A stretch of 37,014 bases of DNA, from positions 1 through 37,014 of IMG/VR virus record IMGVR_UViG_3300042197_004402; one strand, 5' to 3'. The position numbers and the translations under genes are program-made. Below are positions 17,055 through 22,136 of this stretch, piece after piece. Source of the stretch: a virus. Each line of letters begins with the position of its first letter. Within the stretch, counting starts at the first letter, position 1. Below the pieces are notes generated by a model. That model was not told the origin of the DNA, searched no databases, and worked only from the letters and a program-made list of their open reading frames with translations.

Positions 17055-20000
17055 TTAGTTTGCAGCCAACCGTGCCATTTTCTGGCTGGCATCTGCGGTG
17101 CGACCTTGCAGCGCGGCGATGTTCTGCAGCGTTTCCAGCATCCGTTGCTGGGTGTCCGAGTCTTTGTCCTTCATGGCATCCACCACCTGGGCCATGGCTT
17201 CCCGGAACTGATCCCGCACTTCTCTCAGTGCTGCAGCCACATCTGTGTCGCCTGTGGCCATGACTTCTTTGACCGCAGTGCCTATTTCAAGACCAATGTC
17301 TGGGCCAAACATCTTGGTGCCAAACCGAGCTCCTGCCATGTCAAAGTTCATCAGCATGCCGGTGTTAAGTATTTCTTTCCAGGTCCTGGGATCTGTGATG
17401 GTTTCTGTGGCCGCATCGTAGGCGCCTAGGCTACCTGCGATCTGCTTGAGAGCGGCCAGGTCCGTGGTAATTGGCCCAAGGTTCACTCCAGTGTACTCGT
17501 TTTCGCCAAACGCGCCCTGCCCCATGGCAGCAGCATCTGACAGCTTGATGGTCACCGGAATGGTCCGGCCATCGGGCAAGGGCACCACAGCTTCGGGTCC
17601 GGCTTCGCCTGCGATACTGATGCCCTTGGTAATACCACCCTCGGCAAACATGATACTGTTATCAACCGTGGAAGTTACTGTGGGGTCTACTATTGGACTG
17701 TTTGCAATGAGATTCAGTAGGTCAATTTGCTTGGCGATGTTCTCTGGGCGACTCATTTCTTCTCTAGCAAGGTCGCTGACAGCGTAATCGCGCATTGTTG
17801 CGTCTTTTTCTTTGGGGTCTGTGCGCGGATATAACCGACTCAGTTGTTCGTCAGATAGGAGACTTACACCGGATGTTAGTTCCACCGGAATGGTCCGGCC
17901 ATCGGGCAAGGGCACCACAGCTTCGGGTCCGGCTTCGCCTGCGATACTGATGCCCTTGGTAATACCACCGCGGGCCATCATGGGCAGCTCTTGATTGAAC
18001 ATTGCTTGCTCGTGCTTGCGACGTTCAACCAGTCCTGGCAGCACTTCCATCTCGCCTGGATATGCAGCCTTTTTGGGATCTTTTCGAGCCTTGACATACA
18101 GCATCATTGCTTCTGAGATTTGTTTGTTATCTCGACGCCCTCGGTCTGTGACTTGATCTACTGCTCCTGGACCAGCGTTGTATGCAAAAGAAACCAAGGC
18201 ATCAAACTGCGATTGTGTCCATTTGTACTGTTTGGCGTATTTTGCCACTGCGCGCTCGACGCCTCGATCCCTGACAAAATCGTACATTCGTTTTTCTGCT
18301 TCTTTTTCGTCTATGAGTTTTTTTCCAGCGATTTCGTCTGGATCGTCGGTCCGGGTGCCGTATCCTATGCTCCACTGTGTTCGATCTCGATATGCCTTGG
18401 CGTGAAAACCTTCCTTGTTCTTTATAAAATCAAATGCCGCCGGACTGGCTGTCACTGGAATATTGACTGTGCCCGGACTGGAGGACACTGTGTCGCTGTC
18501 CGGCCGATCGGTGCTGCGATTTTGATCCGGGTCCACAGGCACTGATGACCGTTTGCGTCGAGGTTTGATCGGCGCAGGAGACGGAGCAACTGCCGGTGGC
18601 CTGCCAGGTGGTTGTGATTCAAGATCCTTGATAAGTTGTGCCGAAGGAGCAATAGGAAATGGTGTGGATGCGGCACCTTGAGGCGGTGTGCTTGGTTGTT
18701 CATCACGACGTCTCTGCGCTGGTCTGGGTGAAGCAGGAGCAGGTGCAGCAGGTGCAGGAGCAGGTGCAGCAGGAGCAGGTGCAGCAGGAGCAGGAGCAGG
18801 TGCCGGCCTGTCAGACTTTGACTTAGGGGTTCCGTCGGGGTTCCACCCTGACGCATAGTTGCTGTCCCAGATCTGGGCTTTGAGAGGATCAGAAGGGCGA
18901 GGTTTGACCGGGGTTGAGGCCTGGGCAGGCATGGGTGTGGGCGGTGGCGGGGTCTTTTCGGACCGAGCAGGCGGCTTTTCGCCAAACAGTTCGTAGAGCT
19001 TGTCTTTGCCATAGATCAGCCCGTCGGCAAAGGCCTGAGCGGCCGCAGTCGCTGCCGGCAATCCCACATCACTGACAAACCGCTCCATGGCTTCGTTGGC
19101 ACGGATCTGTGTCTCTCGCAGTCTGGCTTGGTCGACCAGTTGCTTGTCTACTCCTTTGCCTTGTTGGTCCTTTAGCTTCTTCTGATCCTCTTCAATCTCT
19201 GCCAGGATCTTGACTATGTCTTTTTCGGCCAGGCCGCGCAGACGTAGATCACCGGCCAGATCGCCATGCACTTGATTGTAGGTACCAATCAGGCCCATGG
19301 TAGTGCCCAGGCGAGTGGCTGTTTCGCCATGTGCGGACGCGATGCGTTGCGCAGCCTCAGCTGCTCCTATCTGGCCTGCTATGACCTGCTGGGCCGCTCG
19401 CAAGCTCTCGCCCTGGCTGCCCATCAATGACTTTTGTGCAGCTTCGGTCTGTACATTACCGGTCTGGATGTCTGCGAACCCCTGGGCGGCTTCCTTGTTC
19501 TGGCTGTGCAAGATAAGATAGGTTTTTTCTAGCTCCTCGGCTTCCTTGGTCTTGCCTTGCTGTCTGAGTCGTTCCAACTGGGCCGCAAACCGTTCCTGGC
19601 TGCGCACCTGTTCGCGGGCCTTTTCTTGTTCCTGGCGTGCCATGCCTGTGAGTTTGGTCAGGGCGTCCTGCTGTTCAAGATACCGCTGAGCACCCTGACT
19701 CAGTCGCTCGAGATCTGCGGCGCTGTTCACAGTGGTATTGCCAATCAAGCGTTGCTGCTGCACATAGTCAGCCATGACCCCTGTGACTTCGGTCATGTCG
19801 TAGCCCAGTCTCAGGAAGTACTCGCGAGATCCTTCCAGGCTCTTGCCCATGCTGGCCAGCTGCTGGCGCCCTTTGGCCACTCCACCACCAAACAAGGTAA
19901 GTTCCGTGGCATTTTGCGCGATCACCTGCACCATGCCGTCGAGCTCGGTCACTGCGATACCAAGCCGCTTGGCATCTTCAAACACCCCTGTGAGGCCGTC

Positions 20001-20531
20001 GCTGGCTGCGGCACCCGACTTGGCCAGGCCTGAGTAGCTCTTGTAGAGCCGATCAGCCTGTTCATTGGCCGCCTTCATTATGTCAGTAAAACCCTTGGCT
20101 GCCAGCGCAGCGCCTGCTACACCTGCAGTCATAACGGCAGCGCCACTGGCAACTTTTCCTACATTGATCCCTAATGCTGACAGTGCTCCGCCCAGAGGTT
20201 TCAATGCCCGGCCCAAGGGCACCAGTAGACCCAGCACAGTGACCACACTGATCACCCCGCTGGTGAGTTGGTCCAATGAACTGTTAAATGCAGCAGCACC
20301 TTTTTCGCCTTGTGCCATGGCCCGGGCAGCGCCGGTTACCGATCCGGCTAGATCAAACAGGGCGTCCACGGCCTTTTCGCCGGCCTGTTCCAACTGCTTG
20401 GCGTTCTTCGTACTGCCCAGAGCCATGGCTCTAGCAGTCTGGTCTGTGACATAGCCCAGTGTGCGCAGTTCTTCGTTGAACTGTGCTGTTAGACGCGTAA
20501 GTTCTTCCAGTTCGATATTTGGATCGGCCAC
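17055..20531 (-). CDS. Tape-measure-like tail protein with an internal GH24 lysozyme domain
   Basis: 1158 residues with GTG start (20529-20531) and an AGGG site about 9 nt upstream. Residues 1-530 are largely helical with an Ala/Gly/Val-rich hydrophobic segment near 95-150 and coiled-coil, Gln/Glu-rich stretches, as in tape-measure proteins. A Pro/Ala linker spans about 520-690, including a perfect AP-type repeat at 577-600. Residues about 695-850 form a lysozyme of the T4/lambdoid (GH24) type: Glu707 in KEGFHAKAYRD, Asp716 nine residues on, Ser721 where T4 has Thr26, then IGYGTR and QFDALVSFAYNAG. Two copies of a GGITKGISIAGEAGPEAVVP segment follow (about 855-883 and 965-993), a motif typical of tape-measure C-termini. 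Likely roles are setting tail length and cutting peptidoglycan during DNA injection. In T4 these functions belong to gp29 and gp5. Confidence 0.75.
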   Translation of the reverse strand: MADPNIELEELTRLTAQFNEELRTLGYVTDQTARAMALGSTKNAKQLEQAGEKAVDALFDLAGSVTGAARAMAQGEKGAAAFNSSLDQLTSGVISVVTVLGLLVPLGRALKPLGGALSALGINVGKVASGAAVMTAGVAGAALAAKGFTDIMKAANEQADRLYKSYSGLAKSGAAASDGLTGVFEDAKRLGIAVTELDGMVQVIAQNATELTLFGGGVAKGRQQLASMGKSLEGSREYFLRLGYDMTEVTGVMADYVQQQRLIGNTTVNSAADLERLSQGAQRYLEQQDALTKLTGMARQEQEKAREQVRSQERFAAQLERLRQQGKTKEAEELEKTYLILHSQNKEAAQGFADIQTGNVQTEAAQKSLMGSQGESLRAAQQVIAGQIGAAEAAQRIASAHGETATRLGTTMGLIGTYNQVHGDLAGDLRLRGLAEKDIVKILAEIEEDQKKLKDQQGKGVDKQLVDQARLRETQIRANEAMERFVSDVGLPAATAAAQAFADGLIYGKDKLYELFGEKPPARSEKTPPPPTPMPAQASTPVKPRPSDPLKAQIWDSNYASGWNPDGTPKSKSDRPAPAPAPAAPAPAAPAPAPAAPAPASPRPAQRRRDEQPSTPPQGAASTPFPIAPSAQLIKDLESQPPGRPPAVAPSPAPIKPRRKRSSVPVDPDQNRSTDRPDSDTVSSSPGTVNIPVTASPAAFDFIKNKEGFHAKAYRDRTQWSIGYGTRTDDPDEIAGKKLIDEKEAEKRMYDFVRDRGVERAVAKYAKQYKWTQSQFDALVSFAYNAGPGAVDQVTDRGRRDNKQISEAMMLYVKARKDPKKAAYPGEMEVLPGLVERRKHEQAMFNQELPMMARGGITKGISIAGEAGPEAVVPLPDGRTIPVELTSGVSLLSDEQLSRLYPRTDPKEKDATMRDYAVSDLAREEMSRPENIAKQIDLLNLIANSPIVDPTVTSTVDNSIMFAEGGITKGISIAGEAGPEAVVPLPDGRTIPVTIKLSDAAAMGQGAFGENEYTGVNLGPITTDLAALKQIAGSLGAYDAATETITDPRTWKEILNTGMLMNFDMAGARFGTKMFGPDIGLEIGTAVKEVMATGDTDVAAALREVRDQFREAMAQVVDAMKDKDSDTQQRMLETLQNIAALQGRTADASQKMARLAAN
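17553..17639 (-). repeat. 87-bp perfect direct repeat, copy A
   Basis: Identical at every base to 17883-17969, in the same orientation and 330 bp (110 codons) apart, inside the tape-measure-like gene. It encodes the downstream copy of the GGITKGISIAGEAGPEAVVP segment and its PLPDGRTIPV continuation. Confidence 0.95.
17883..17969 (-). repeat. 87-bp perfect direct repeat, copy B
   Basis: Partner of 17553-17639. Identity extends to synonymous positions, so the copies are either recently duplicated or kept alike by gene conversion. Recombination between them would delete exactly 110 codons in frame. Confidence 0.95.
18732..18801 (-). repeat. Tandem GCAGGA/GCAGGT/GCAGCA repeats encoding an Ala-Pro linker
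   Basis: Degenerate 6-bp and 9-bp units on the plus strand (GCAGGAGCAGGTGCAGCAG and variants) give an alternating Pro-Ala run at about residues 577-600 of the tape-measure-like protein, just before the lysozyme domain. It looks like a stiff inter-domain spacer that could vary in length. Confidence 0.85.
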
Positions 20532-20584: not shown

Positions 20585-21421
20585 ATGACTGCCAACCCAC
20601 TGCAACAGTTTTTCCGACAACCTGCTATCTACATACGTCTGCCCAGCGGCGGCAACTTTTGGCCCGCTGAGAGCCTGGCATTGCCTCAAAACGGCGAACT
20701 GCCGGTGTTCCCCATGACCGCGGCCGATGAAATCACTTATCGCACTCCGGACGCCTTGTTCAACGGACAGGCCGTGGTAGACGTCATACAGAGCTGTGTT
20801 CCTGCGATCAAGAATGCCTGGCACATTCCCAGCCTGGATCTCAACGCTGTGCTGATCGCCATACGCATTGCCAGCTACGGCCATGACATGGAGATAGGCA
20901 GTGTCTGTCCAAGTTGTGGCACCGAATCGGATTTTTCCCTAGATCTACGATCGGTCCTGGATCAGCTGCGAGCCCCCGACTACAGCCAGGGCCTGGCCCA
21001 GGGTGACCTCGAAATCTCTTTTCGTCCCATGAGCTATGAGCAGCAGAATGCCAGCAACCTCGAACAGTTTGAAAGCCAACAGATCATGCGGTCAGTGCCC
21101 GACTCGGGCCTGAGCGAGCAGGAAAAGTTGCAGCGGATGACACAGCTCATGAAGGCGGTCACGCAGCTGACCATACGTGCGCTCACGGCCACGATTGCCA
21201 GTGTGCGAACTCCTACGGCCATGGTCACGGATTCCGCACACATCCATGAATGGCTGGAAAACTGCGACCGTGCGCTGTTTGCCAAGATCCGCGACCATGC
21301 CGTGACGCTGCGCGCCGACTCCGAACTGCGCCCCATGACATTGACCTGCAGAGACTGCGAACATCAATACCAGCAGGGACTGACCCTGGATCAGGCAAGT
21401 TTTTTCGAACCCGCCTCCTGA
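20585..21421 (+). CDS. 26: Baseplate hub (assembly) protein, gp26-type
   Basis: 278 residues from ATG 20585, which is the first ATG after the late promoter; upstream in-frame codons lie before the predicted transcription start. Motifs are IYIRLPSGGNFW, ELPVFPMTAADEITYRTPDALFNG, VIQSCVPAIKNAW and LIAIRIASYGHDMEI, followed by two Cys pairs, CPSCG near residue 114 and CRDCE near the C-terminus, that could hold one zinc. This pattern is what I know as the T4 baseplate protein family (gp26, with gp51 similar) in cyanophage-type phages. gp26 and gp51 help build the baseplate hub. The gene ends in a T TTT TTC slippery sequence 12 nt before the TGA, with the next ORF in the -1 frame. It is divergent from the tape-measure-like gene. 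Confidence 0.8.
   Translation: MTANPLQQFFRQPAIYIRLPSGGNFWPAESLALPQNGELPVFPMTAADEITYRTPDALFNGQAVVDVIQSCVPAIKNAWHIPSLDLNAVLIAIRIASYGHDMEIGSVCPSCGTESDFSLDLRSVLDQLRAPDYSQGLAQGDLEISFRPMSYEQQNASNLEQFESQQIMRSVPDSGLSEQEKLQRMTQLMKAVTQLTIRALTATIASVRTPTAMVTDSAHIHEWLENCDRALFAKIRDHAVTLRADSELRPMTLTCRDCEHQYQQGLTLDQASFFEPAS
21400..21406 (+). promoter_or_regulatory. Candidate -1 frameshift slippery site T TTT TTC
   Basis: In the gp26 frame the codons are AGT TTT TTC, so the canonical heptamer X XXY YYZ is formed exactly in register. Slippage by -1 enters the frame of the next ORF with no intervening stop. The gp26 stop (21419-21421) is 12 nt after the heptamer. No strong downstream stem or pseudoknot is obvious by eye. 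Confidence 0.5.
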
Positions 21422-21636
21422 TCCTAAGCAACGATGAAATCGCCAAGTACATAGAACAAATGGATCAGGAGGCCAAAACCATCAGAGCCGACTCCATGCG
21501 CCTGGCCTGGCACATGCGTGGTGGTGCGACCTATGCACAGGTCATGATGATGAGCGCCGATGAACGTCGTATCATATCCGATCTGGCCAAAGACAACATA
21601 GAAACCACAAAGAAATCAAAGTTACCCTGGTTCTAA
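21418..21636 (+). CDS. Small gp26-linked tail/baseplate assembly protein (frameshift extension or non-ATG start)
   Basis: A 72-codon ORF in the -1 frame relative to gp26, ending at TAA 21634-21636. Its sequence (NDEIAKYIEQMDQEAK, MRLAWHMRGGATYAQ, MSADERRIISDLAKDN, ending TTKKSKLPWF) matches a small protein that follows gp26 in cyanophage-type phages, as I recall. The conserved part begins around codon 5, but the first ATG (21460) would cut off about ten of those residues. Before it there is only CTG 21418, which overlaps the gp26 TGA, and no Shine-Dalgarno is clear. It is therefore made either from a rare start, by termination-reinitiation at CTGA, or as a gp26 fusion through -1 frameshifting at 21400. 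The start given is the overlap codon and is uncertain. Next gene overlap: TAATG. Confidence 0.65.
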   Translation: MILSNDEIAKYIEQMDQEAKTIRADSMRLAWHMRGGATYAQVMMMSADERRIISDLAKDNIETTKKSKLPWF

Positions 21637-22136
21637 TGGACATCGATCATATCACTCACGAAATCACCGCCTGGTTGGAAACCTTTGTGGAACAACCGCA
21701 TCCGGCCCTGGGTGGATGGCCACCCTGTCCCTATGCACGCCAGGCGCGTGTGCAGGGGCAGATCAAGATTCTGCAGGGCACCCAACTCATGGCCGATGCT
21801 GTGGCGGCCGTAGCCCATGGTCTATGGCAGCAGGAAGTGGTGATCTATTGCTACGATACCTCGGCGATCTCAGGACCTGATTTTGCCCAGACCATCCACG
21901 AGATCAATGAGTTCCTTGAGCCGCATGGTATGTTTGCCTTGGACGATCACCCCGACAATGCCGAAATAGTCAACGGAATCAGTTTCAACTTTGGAGCATG
22001 TGCTCTCATGATCCTGCAACTGCGTGAAAAATTAGATGTAGCAGCACAGACCTTGGCCGCCAAGGGCTACTATCAAGGTTGGCCCGAGGCGTATCTTGAC
22101 CAGCTGTTCCTGGGCCGACGAGATCCCCGCCAATGA
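21636..22136 (+). CDS. Conserved hypothetical protein with a PCPYA motif
   Basis: 166 residues; I do not recognise a characterised family. The N-terminal part has WLETFVEQPHPALGG then WPPCPYARQARVQG (about residues 13-41), a Pro/Cys motif I vaguely associate with uncharacterised marine phage and bacterial proteins. The middle, EVVIYCYDTSAISG, looks like a beta-strand plus loop; the rest is helical (IHEINEFLEPHG and ALMILQLREKLDVAAQTLA). A lone Cys in CPYA could be functional but there is no second Cys pair. The start overlaps the preceding stop (TAATG) and the end overlaps the next start (ATGA), so it belongs to the gp26 transcript and is expected late. Confidence 0.6.
   Translation: MDIDHITHEITAWLETFVEQPHPALGGWPPCPYARQARVQGQIKILQGTQLMADAVAAVAHGLWQQEVVIYCYDTSAISGPDFAQTIHEINEFLEPHGMFALDDHPDNAEIVNGISFNFGACALMILQLREKLDVAAQTLAAKGYYQGWPEAYLDQLFLGRRDPRQ

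Follow-up and report, generated by a model that had tools for sequence, protein, structure and literature searches.

The stretch of DNA analysed here (hereafter the window) is the whole IMG/VR virus record IMGVR_UViG_3300042197_004402 (37,014 nt) and comes from an uncultivated phage related to T4. It carries a gene that starts with ATG at 20585, ends with TGA at 21419-21421 and encodes a protein of the gp26 type, followed by a small ORF in the -1 frame (Table 1). The product of the first gene belongs to the PF12322 (T4_baseplate) family (3e-15; 56.9 bits vs a curated cutoff of 24.5) and matches phrog_150 (baseplate hub; 1.5e-16), which also includes gp26 and gp51 of T4. Its AlphaFold model (pLDDT 87.7) matches gp26-type proteins in BFVD. 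All of 46 homologs keep two CxxC pairs (residues 108/111 and 255/258), which suggests that the gp26-type protein may hold a zinc site.

Table 1. Features of the gp26-type locus and of its neighbour in the window
Feature	Position	Strand	Remarks
Tape-measure-type gene with embedded lysozyme domain	17055-20531	-	Adjacent to and divergent from the gp26-type gene
gp26-type ORF, short form (TAC-N-like), 278 aa	20585-21421	+	PF12322, phrog_150, model, CxxC pairs
Slippery heptamer T_TTT_TTC	21400-21406	+	Zero-frame register; exact in 95/95 and 66/66 intact loci
-1 frame extension (TAC-C-like)	21406-21636	+	76 codons and stop; protein conservation in homologs, helical model
Spacer, heptamer to hairpin	21407-21412	+	6 nt
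Hairpin 5' arm GCCTCCTGATCC	21413-21424	+	Includes the zero-frame stop TGA (21419-21421)
Hairpin 3' arm GGATCAGGAGGC	21462-21473	+	Perfect complement of GCCTCCTGATCC; 37-nt loop

Read directly from the window, the last zero-frame codons of the gp26-type gene (21398-21421) are AGT TTT TTC GAA CCC GCC TCC TGA. They include the heptamer T_TTT_TTC, which follows the X_XXY_YYZ pattern in the zero-frame register, lies within the overlap of the two ORFs and precedes the TGA by 12 nt. In the -1 frame, the junction reads TTT TTT CGA ACC CGC CTC CTG ATC and the frame then stays open until the TAA at 21634-21636. An earlier note on this DNA had pointed out the heptamer in the register of -1 slippage, its distance to the stop and the next ORF in the -1 frame with no intervening stop; all these details of the junction proved correct. 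Such an arrangement would encode a short and a long isoform that share their N-terminal domain, the predicted long form comprising 350 aa (274 + 76). T_TTT_TTC per se is not rare in the window (12 copies observed vs 4.7 expected). A chance occurrence of the heptamer at the junction was considered and rejected: the 12 copies make a lone copy uninformative, and the conservation described below exceeds chance.

Relatives of the gene were located through pattern searches of IMG/VR contigs, and tblastn led to 66 phage records, including those of the large phages Atu_ph07, Phosso, PBECO4, PA5oct and GAP32. In a first set of 95 loci (the window, 87 IMG/VR loci and 7 named phages; identity down to 27%), whose junctions were read locus by locus, the exact heptamer is found in register in every case and a long -1 ORF is present unless a contig end interrupts it. 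A second set, mostly of the cyanophage type and leaving out two loci (one at a contig end, one with a gene broken far upstream), carries the heptamer in all of its 66 intact loci. Ah1, S-SM1, Vibrio 2.275 and RaK2 likewise carry T_TTT_TTC. The earlier note had proposed an alignment of relatives and had taken a loss of the heptamer as a sign against frameshifting; the heptamer is kept where the ORFs overlap in both sets, and no loss was encountered among relatives of the jumbo-phage and IMG/VR type, whether close or distant. Among 30 representative homologs with mutual identity below 60%, the residue ahead of the heptamer varies between S, N, A, R, D and H, but its codon ends in T every time. 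For this set, the joint probability of the heptamer given codon usage is about 10^-30, a figure that treats the lineages as independent and is overstated, as they are related.

The -1 frame is free of stops for 62-79 codons in the homologs, and the tail that it encodes is conserved among them at the protein level. Differences between the tails of the window and of its relative L001 fall on the first, second and third positions of the -1 codons in 10, 6 and 30 cases (position 3 thus accounting for 30/46). The -1 frame is under protein-coding selection and has no start of its own. The model of the tail is helical (pLDDT 87.5), and no fold match to it was found.

A feature that the earlier note had missed lies just downstream of the heptamer: a 12-bp perfect inverted repeat whose 5' arm runs across the zero-frame stop. 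With its 6-nt spacer, this stem falls within the distance of about 5-9 nt past the heptamer expected of a downstream stimulatory structure; the pairing is not universal. The hairpin has a minimum free energy of -24.1 kcal/mol (z -5.1), and 0/200 shuffles fold as low. A scan of 74 sequences, covering 300 nt upstream and 200 nt downstream of the site, gave a mean folding z of -1.65 exactly at the hairpin and of about -0.7 to +0.6 elsewhere, the mean at the hairpin being -2.89 in the window's clade and -0.94 in the others. Compared with shuffles that preserve the -1 protein by using synonymous codons, 81 sequences also fold better (mean z -1.4), 30 of them individually at p <=0.05. Within a clade of 27 sequences, seven core pairs are nearly always retained and two of them are changed on both sides, a modest covariation. 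The GCCTCCT/AGGAGGC pairing is restricted to the window's clade, and the folds of other clades are different or indistinct; in the distant Atu_ph07, Phosso and L088, the same 5' segment pairs with another 3' segment. A single universal stem was rejected, since this pairing occurs only in the window's clade. A search of Rfam found no family matching the hairpin element. This conserved stimulatory hairpin may add to the published picture of frameshifting in T4-like phages.

The neighbouring gene on the opposite strand encodes a product that matches PF00959 (5.8e-19) and, more weakly, a tape measure profile (phrog_1292; 1.3e-5). These profile and domain matches agree with the statement of the earlier note that the gene pair sits beside a tape-measure-like gene. 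As is usual for genes of tail assembly chaperones (TAC), the gp26-type gene lies beside the tape measure gene, adjacent yet divergent. A tape-measure-type neighbour occupies the same position in jumbo phages, and that of RaK2 has been called similar to tape measure protein. Genes for the portal and a large virion protein, then the gp26-type gene and the small ORF, follow one another in this order in Phosso, PBECO4, XaC1, GAP32 and Kaldavass, and PA5oct has the same gene order with the small ORF unannotated. SP-15 has its gp26-type gene flanked by the tail tube and tape measure genes on the same strand, i.e. at the position of G/GT. Within the tape-measure-type protein of the window, the phage lysozyme domain is internal and has a Pro/Ala-rich linker at its flank; the motifs GEAGPEAVVPLP and GGITKGISIAGEAGPEAVVPLPDGRTIPV each occur twice in this protein.

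Given the invariant heptamer, the conserved -1 frame and the lack of a usable second start (see below), the locus very probably relies on -1 programmed ribosomal frameshifting to produce a tail assembly chaperone in two forms, one short and one long, and the frameshift put forward in the earlier note is thereby supported. The following model can be proposed. Most ribosomes would read the gp26-type gene up to its TGA and synthesize the 278-aa gp26-like short form. A minority would pause while their P and A sites hold the TTT and TTC codons of T_TTT_TTC, assisted by the 12-bp hairpin 6 nt downstream; both tRNAs would slip one base back, and reading in the -1 frame up to 21636 would give the 350-aa long form with its helical C-terminal domain. 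By analogy with gpG/gpGT of lambda (PMC5009743), the domain common to both forms would cover the product of the neighbouring tape measure gene, and the long form, made less often, would use its C-terminal domain to bring in tail tube subunits or to initiate the tube. In T4, genes 26 and 51 encode the short and the long form, respectively, a correspondence that the sequences show via the cyanophage relatives; likewise read from sequence are the heptamer, its register, the open -1 frame, the conservation of these features and the hairpin. We infer both the occurrence and the efficiency of slippage, as well as the chaperone function; for the latter, the model draws on the T4 and lambda literature, because neither sequence search nor fold match found a solved structure for the family in the PDB.

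Frameshifting might also be real and serve something other than a tail assembly chaperone, the long form being a component of the baseplate hub. The families matched by the gp26-type protein do carry baseplate hub labels, and older T4 genetics put gp26 in the hub (PMC3004832). However, in the table of the same review, gp26 and gp51 figure as chaperones of hub assembly, and gp51 is described there as required yet missing from the final particle (PMC3004832). Furthermore, the portal and tape-measure neighbours of PA5oct bear ESI-MS/MS notes whereas its gp26-type protein bears none, and two isoforms produced by -1 frameshifting beside a tape measure gene are the pattern of chaperones (PMC5009743). 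A hub component thus appears unlikely, and a chaperone remains the preferred reading.

As for the frameshift itself, the small ORF could instead be an independent gene, with translation restarting at the overlapping stop (coupled re-initiation) from CTG 21418 or ATG 21460. The two ORFs overlap, public records annotate the tail as a gene of its own, some relatives have an ATG at codon 4-5, and Cygsa01 shows a TAATG overlap without the heptamer. In the window, however, in-frame ATGs are found solely at 21250 and 21460, and the only CTG near the junction, 21418, overlaps the TGA. An ATG, GTG or TTG occurs within the first 14 codons in only 24 of 78 distinct tails, at scattered positions, and in none is there a Shine-Dalgarno-like motif upstream. 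This survey bears out what the earlier note had seen in the window, namely a small ORF with neither a proper start nor a Shine-Dalgarno sequence and with CTG 21418 as its only candidate. The same note had held that a proper start in relatives would speak against frameshifting; the window's family shows none beyond these scattered codons, and Atu_ph07, Phosso and PBECO4, where codon 4 or 5 is an in-frame ATG, nonetheless retain the exact heptamer. Re-initiation would also leave unexplained a heptamer that is invariant across phages less than 60% identical, and T4 gp51 has the matching domain in one chain. Such a separate gene is therefore very unlikely. An independent start at the stop codon was rejected, as the start is not conserved and a Shine-Dalgarno sequence is absent; ATG 21250 was rejected as an internal out-of-frame start, as the upstream -1 frame has stops in L003, L006 and L007. 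Still less probable is slippage of the RNA polymerase on the run of six T, which would give a mixed mRNA population and is known from some phage and bacterial genes: six T are short for this process, the run is always T6 then C in the register of tandem tRNA slippage, and there would be no need for a hairpin at the ribosomal spacer distance.

The window and T4 share the protein family (PF12322, phrog_150), but T4 has two separate genes without the heptamer where the window has one gene and a frameshift. T4 gp26 ends with EFFELL-stop at the position of the slippery site, its gene reading GAG TTC TTT GAG there, and gp51 continues past this point with a similar C-terminal motif. The -1 tail of cyanophages (2.8e-30), that of Ah1 (8.2e-15) and the end of T4 gp51 (1.2e-23) all match phrog_634. 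The window tail does not match phrog_634, and its profile comparison with gp51 is weak (E 8e-5, probability 61%), covering its C-terminal 35 residues, aligned in register as expected. The tail that the earlier note described as part of one T4 chain is thus found in gp51, strongly via the cyanophage relatives and weakly for the window tail directly, and not in gp26. In a tree that has long branches and is unrooted, gp26 and gp51 group together against the frameshift types (support 98/99), with the frameshifting Straboviridae phage Ah1 adjacent, which is the pattern expected from the duplication of a frameshifting ancestor. Chances appear about even that the hairpin, with its 5' arm at a fixed distance across the zero-frame stop and a 3' partner that shifts between clades, is ancient and selected, and that T4 genes 26 and 51 are a duplicated frameshifting gene of which each copy kept one isoform. 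T4 also has an annotated internal product, 26' (L017 5803-6090; 95 aa), which covers the C-terminal part of gp26.

Vladimirov and co-workers reportedly assigned T4 genes 26 and 51 in 2022 as TAC-N and TAC-NC, and the abstract of their study is said to name both genes and to describe frameshifting as conserved in several T4-like groups. The window locus would work like the lambda gpG/gpGT pair; this likeness concerns the mode of action, and a search for homology gave no PDB sequence or fold match, all matched families being of the gp26 type. The lambda pair differs by its protein family as judged from sequence and by a heptamer other than T_TTT_TTC, and in the window, the gp26-type and tape measure genes are transcribed divergently. 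Frameshifted TAC genes of T4-like phages (cyanophages, Cinqassovirus, RaK2-like and other jumbo phages) share T_TTT_TTC, its position and the -1 tail with the window. Compared with them, the window is distinguished by the uncultivated state of its phage and by a GC-rich hairpin whose partner arm is unlike that of distant groups.

In their passages on T4-like TAC genes, PMC10274946 and PMC12846349 cite Vladimirov, Gautam and Davidson 2022 (Virology 566:9-15) and mention poly-T slippery sites in TAC-N genes as well as T4-like phages in which one short and one fused long gene replace frameshifting. Since frameshifting of T4-like chaperone genes has already been published, the window locus is a further case of a mechanism known for phage tail chaperones, those of T4-like phages included; what is new here is the case in an uncultivated T4-related phage. 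The TAC locus of Pakpunavirus Adele and of Andersonviridae similarly has a poly-T slippery site ending TAC-N and an open -1 frame, but with the motif GTTTTT and in another phage family (PMC12846349). A 2016 review names T4 as the exception among long-tailed phages to an otherwise conserved G-T frameshift (PMC5009743). As the gp26-type family uses a frameshift across cyanophage-type and jumbo phages, the two-gene arrangement of T4, long listed as the exception to G/GT (PMC5009743), can be studied as a duplication that replaced recoding.

In many phage records, the tail of the long form has its own entry, either as a hypothetical protein or under the name gp51; a joined CDS would be the proper annotation. 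The record of S-SM1 (L105 2573-2755) treats part of the -1 tail as an independent 60-aa protein, named gp51 (baseplate hub assembly catalyst), which has the look of the C-terminal portion of a fusion made by frameshifting. In the window, the stop of the tail and the start codon of the following gene overlap (TAATG, 21634-21638; gene 21636-22136, weak DUF6875 match, phrog_10325); this overlap, absent in L001, suggests that the next gene may be coupled to the frameshifted ribosomes. Lastly, three gp26-type genes deviate at the site: that of the Pseudomonas phage Cygsa01 (L110, about 2290-2330), whose TAATG overlap joins it to the small ORF, that of RAS14 (L107), with T_TTT_TTT in place of T_TTT_TTC, and that of SP-15 (L106), with GAA TTT TTT CAC and no T_TTT_TTC. 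These genes may use re-initiation or another type of slippage.
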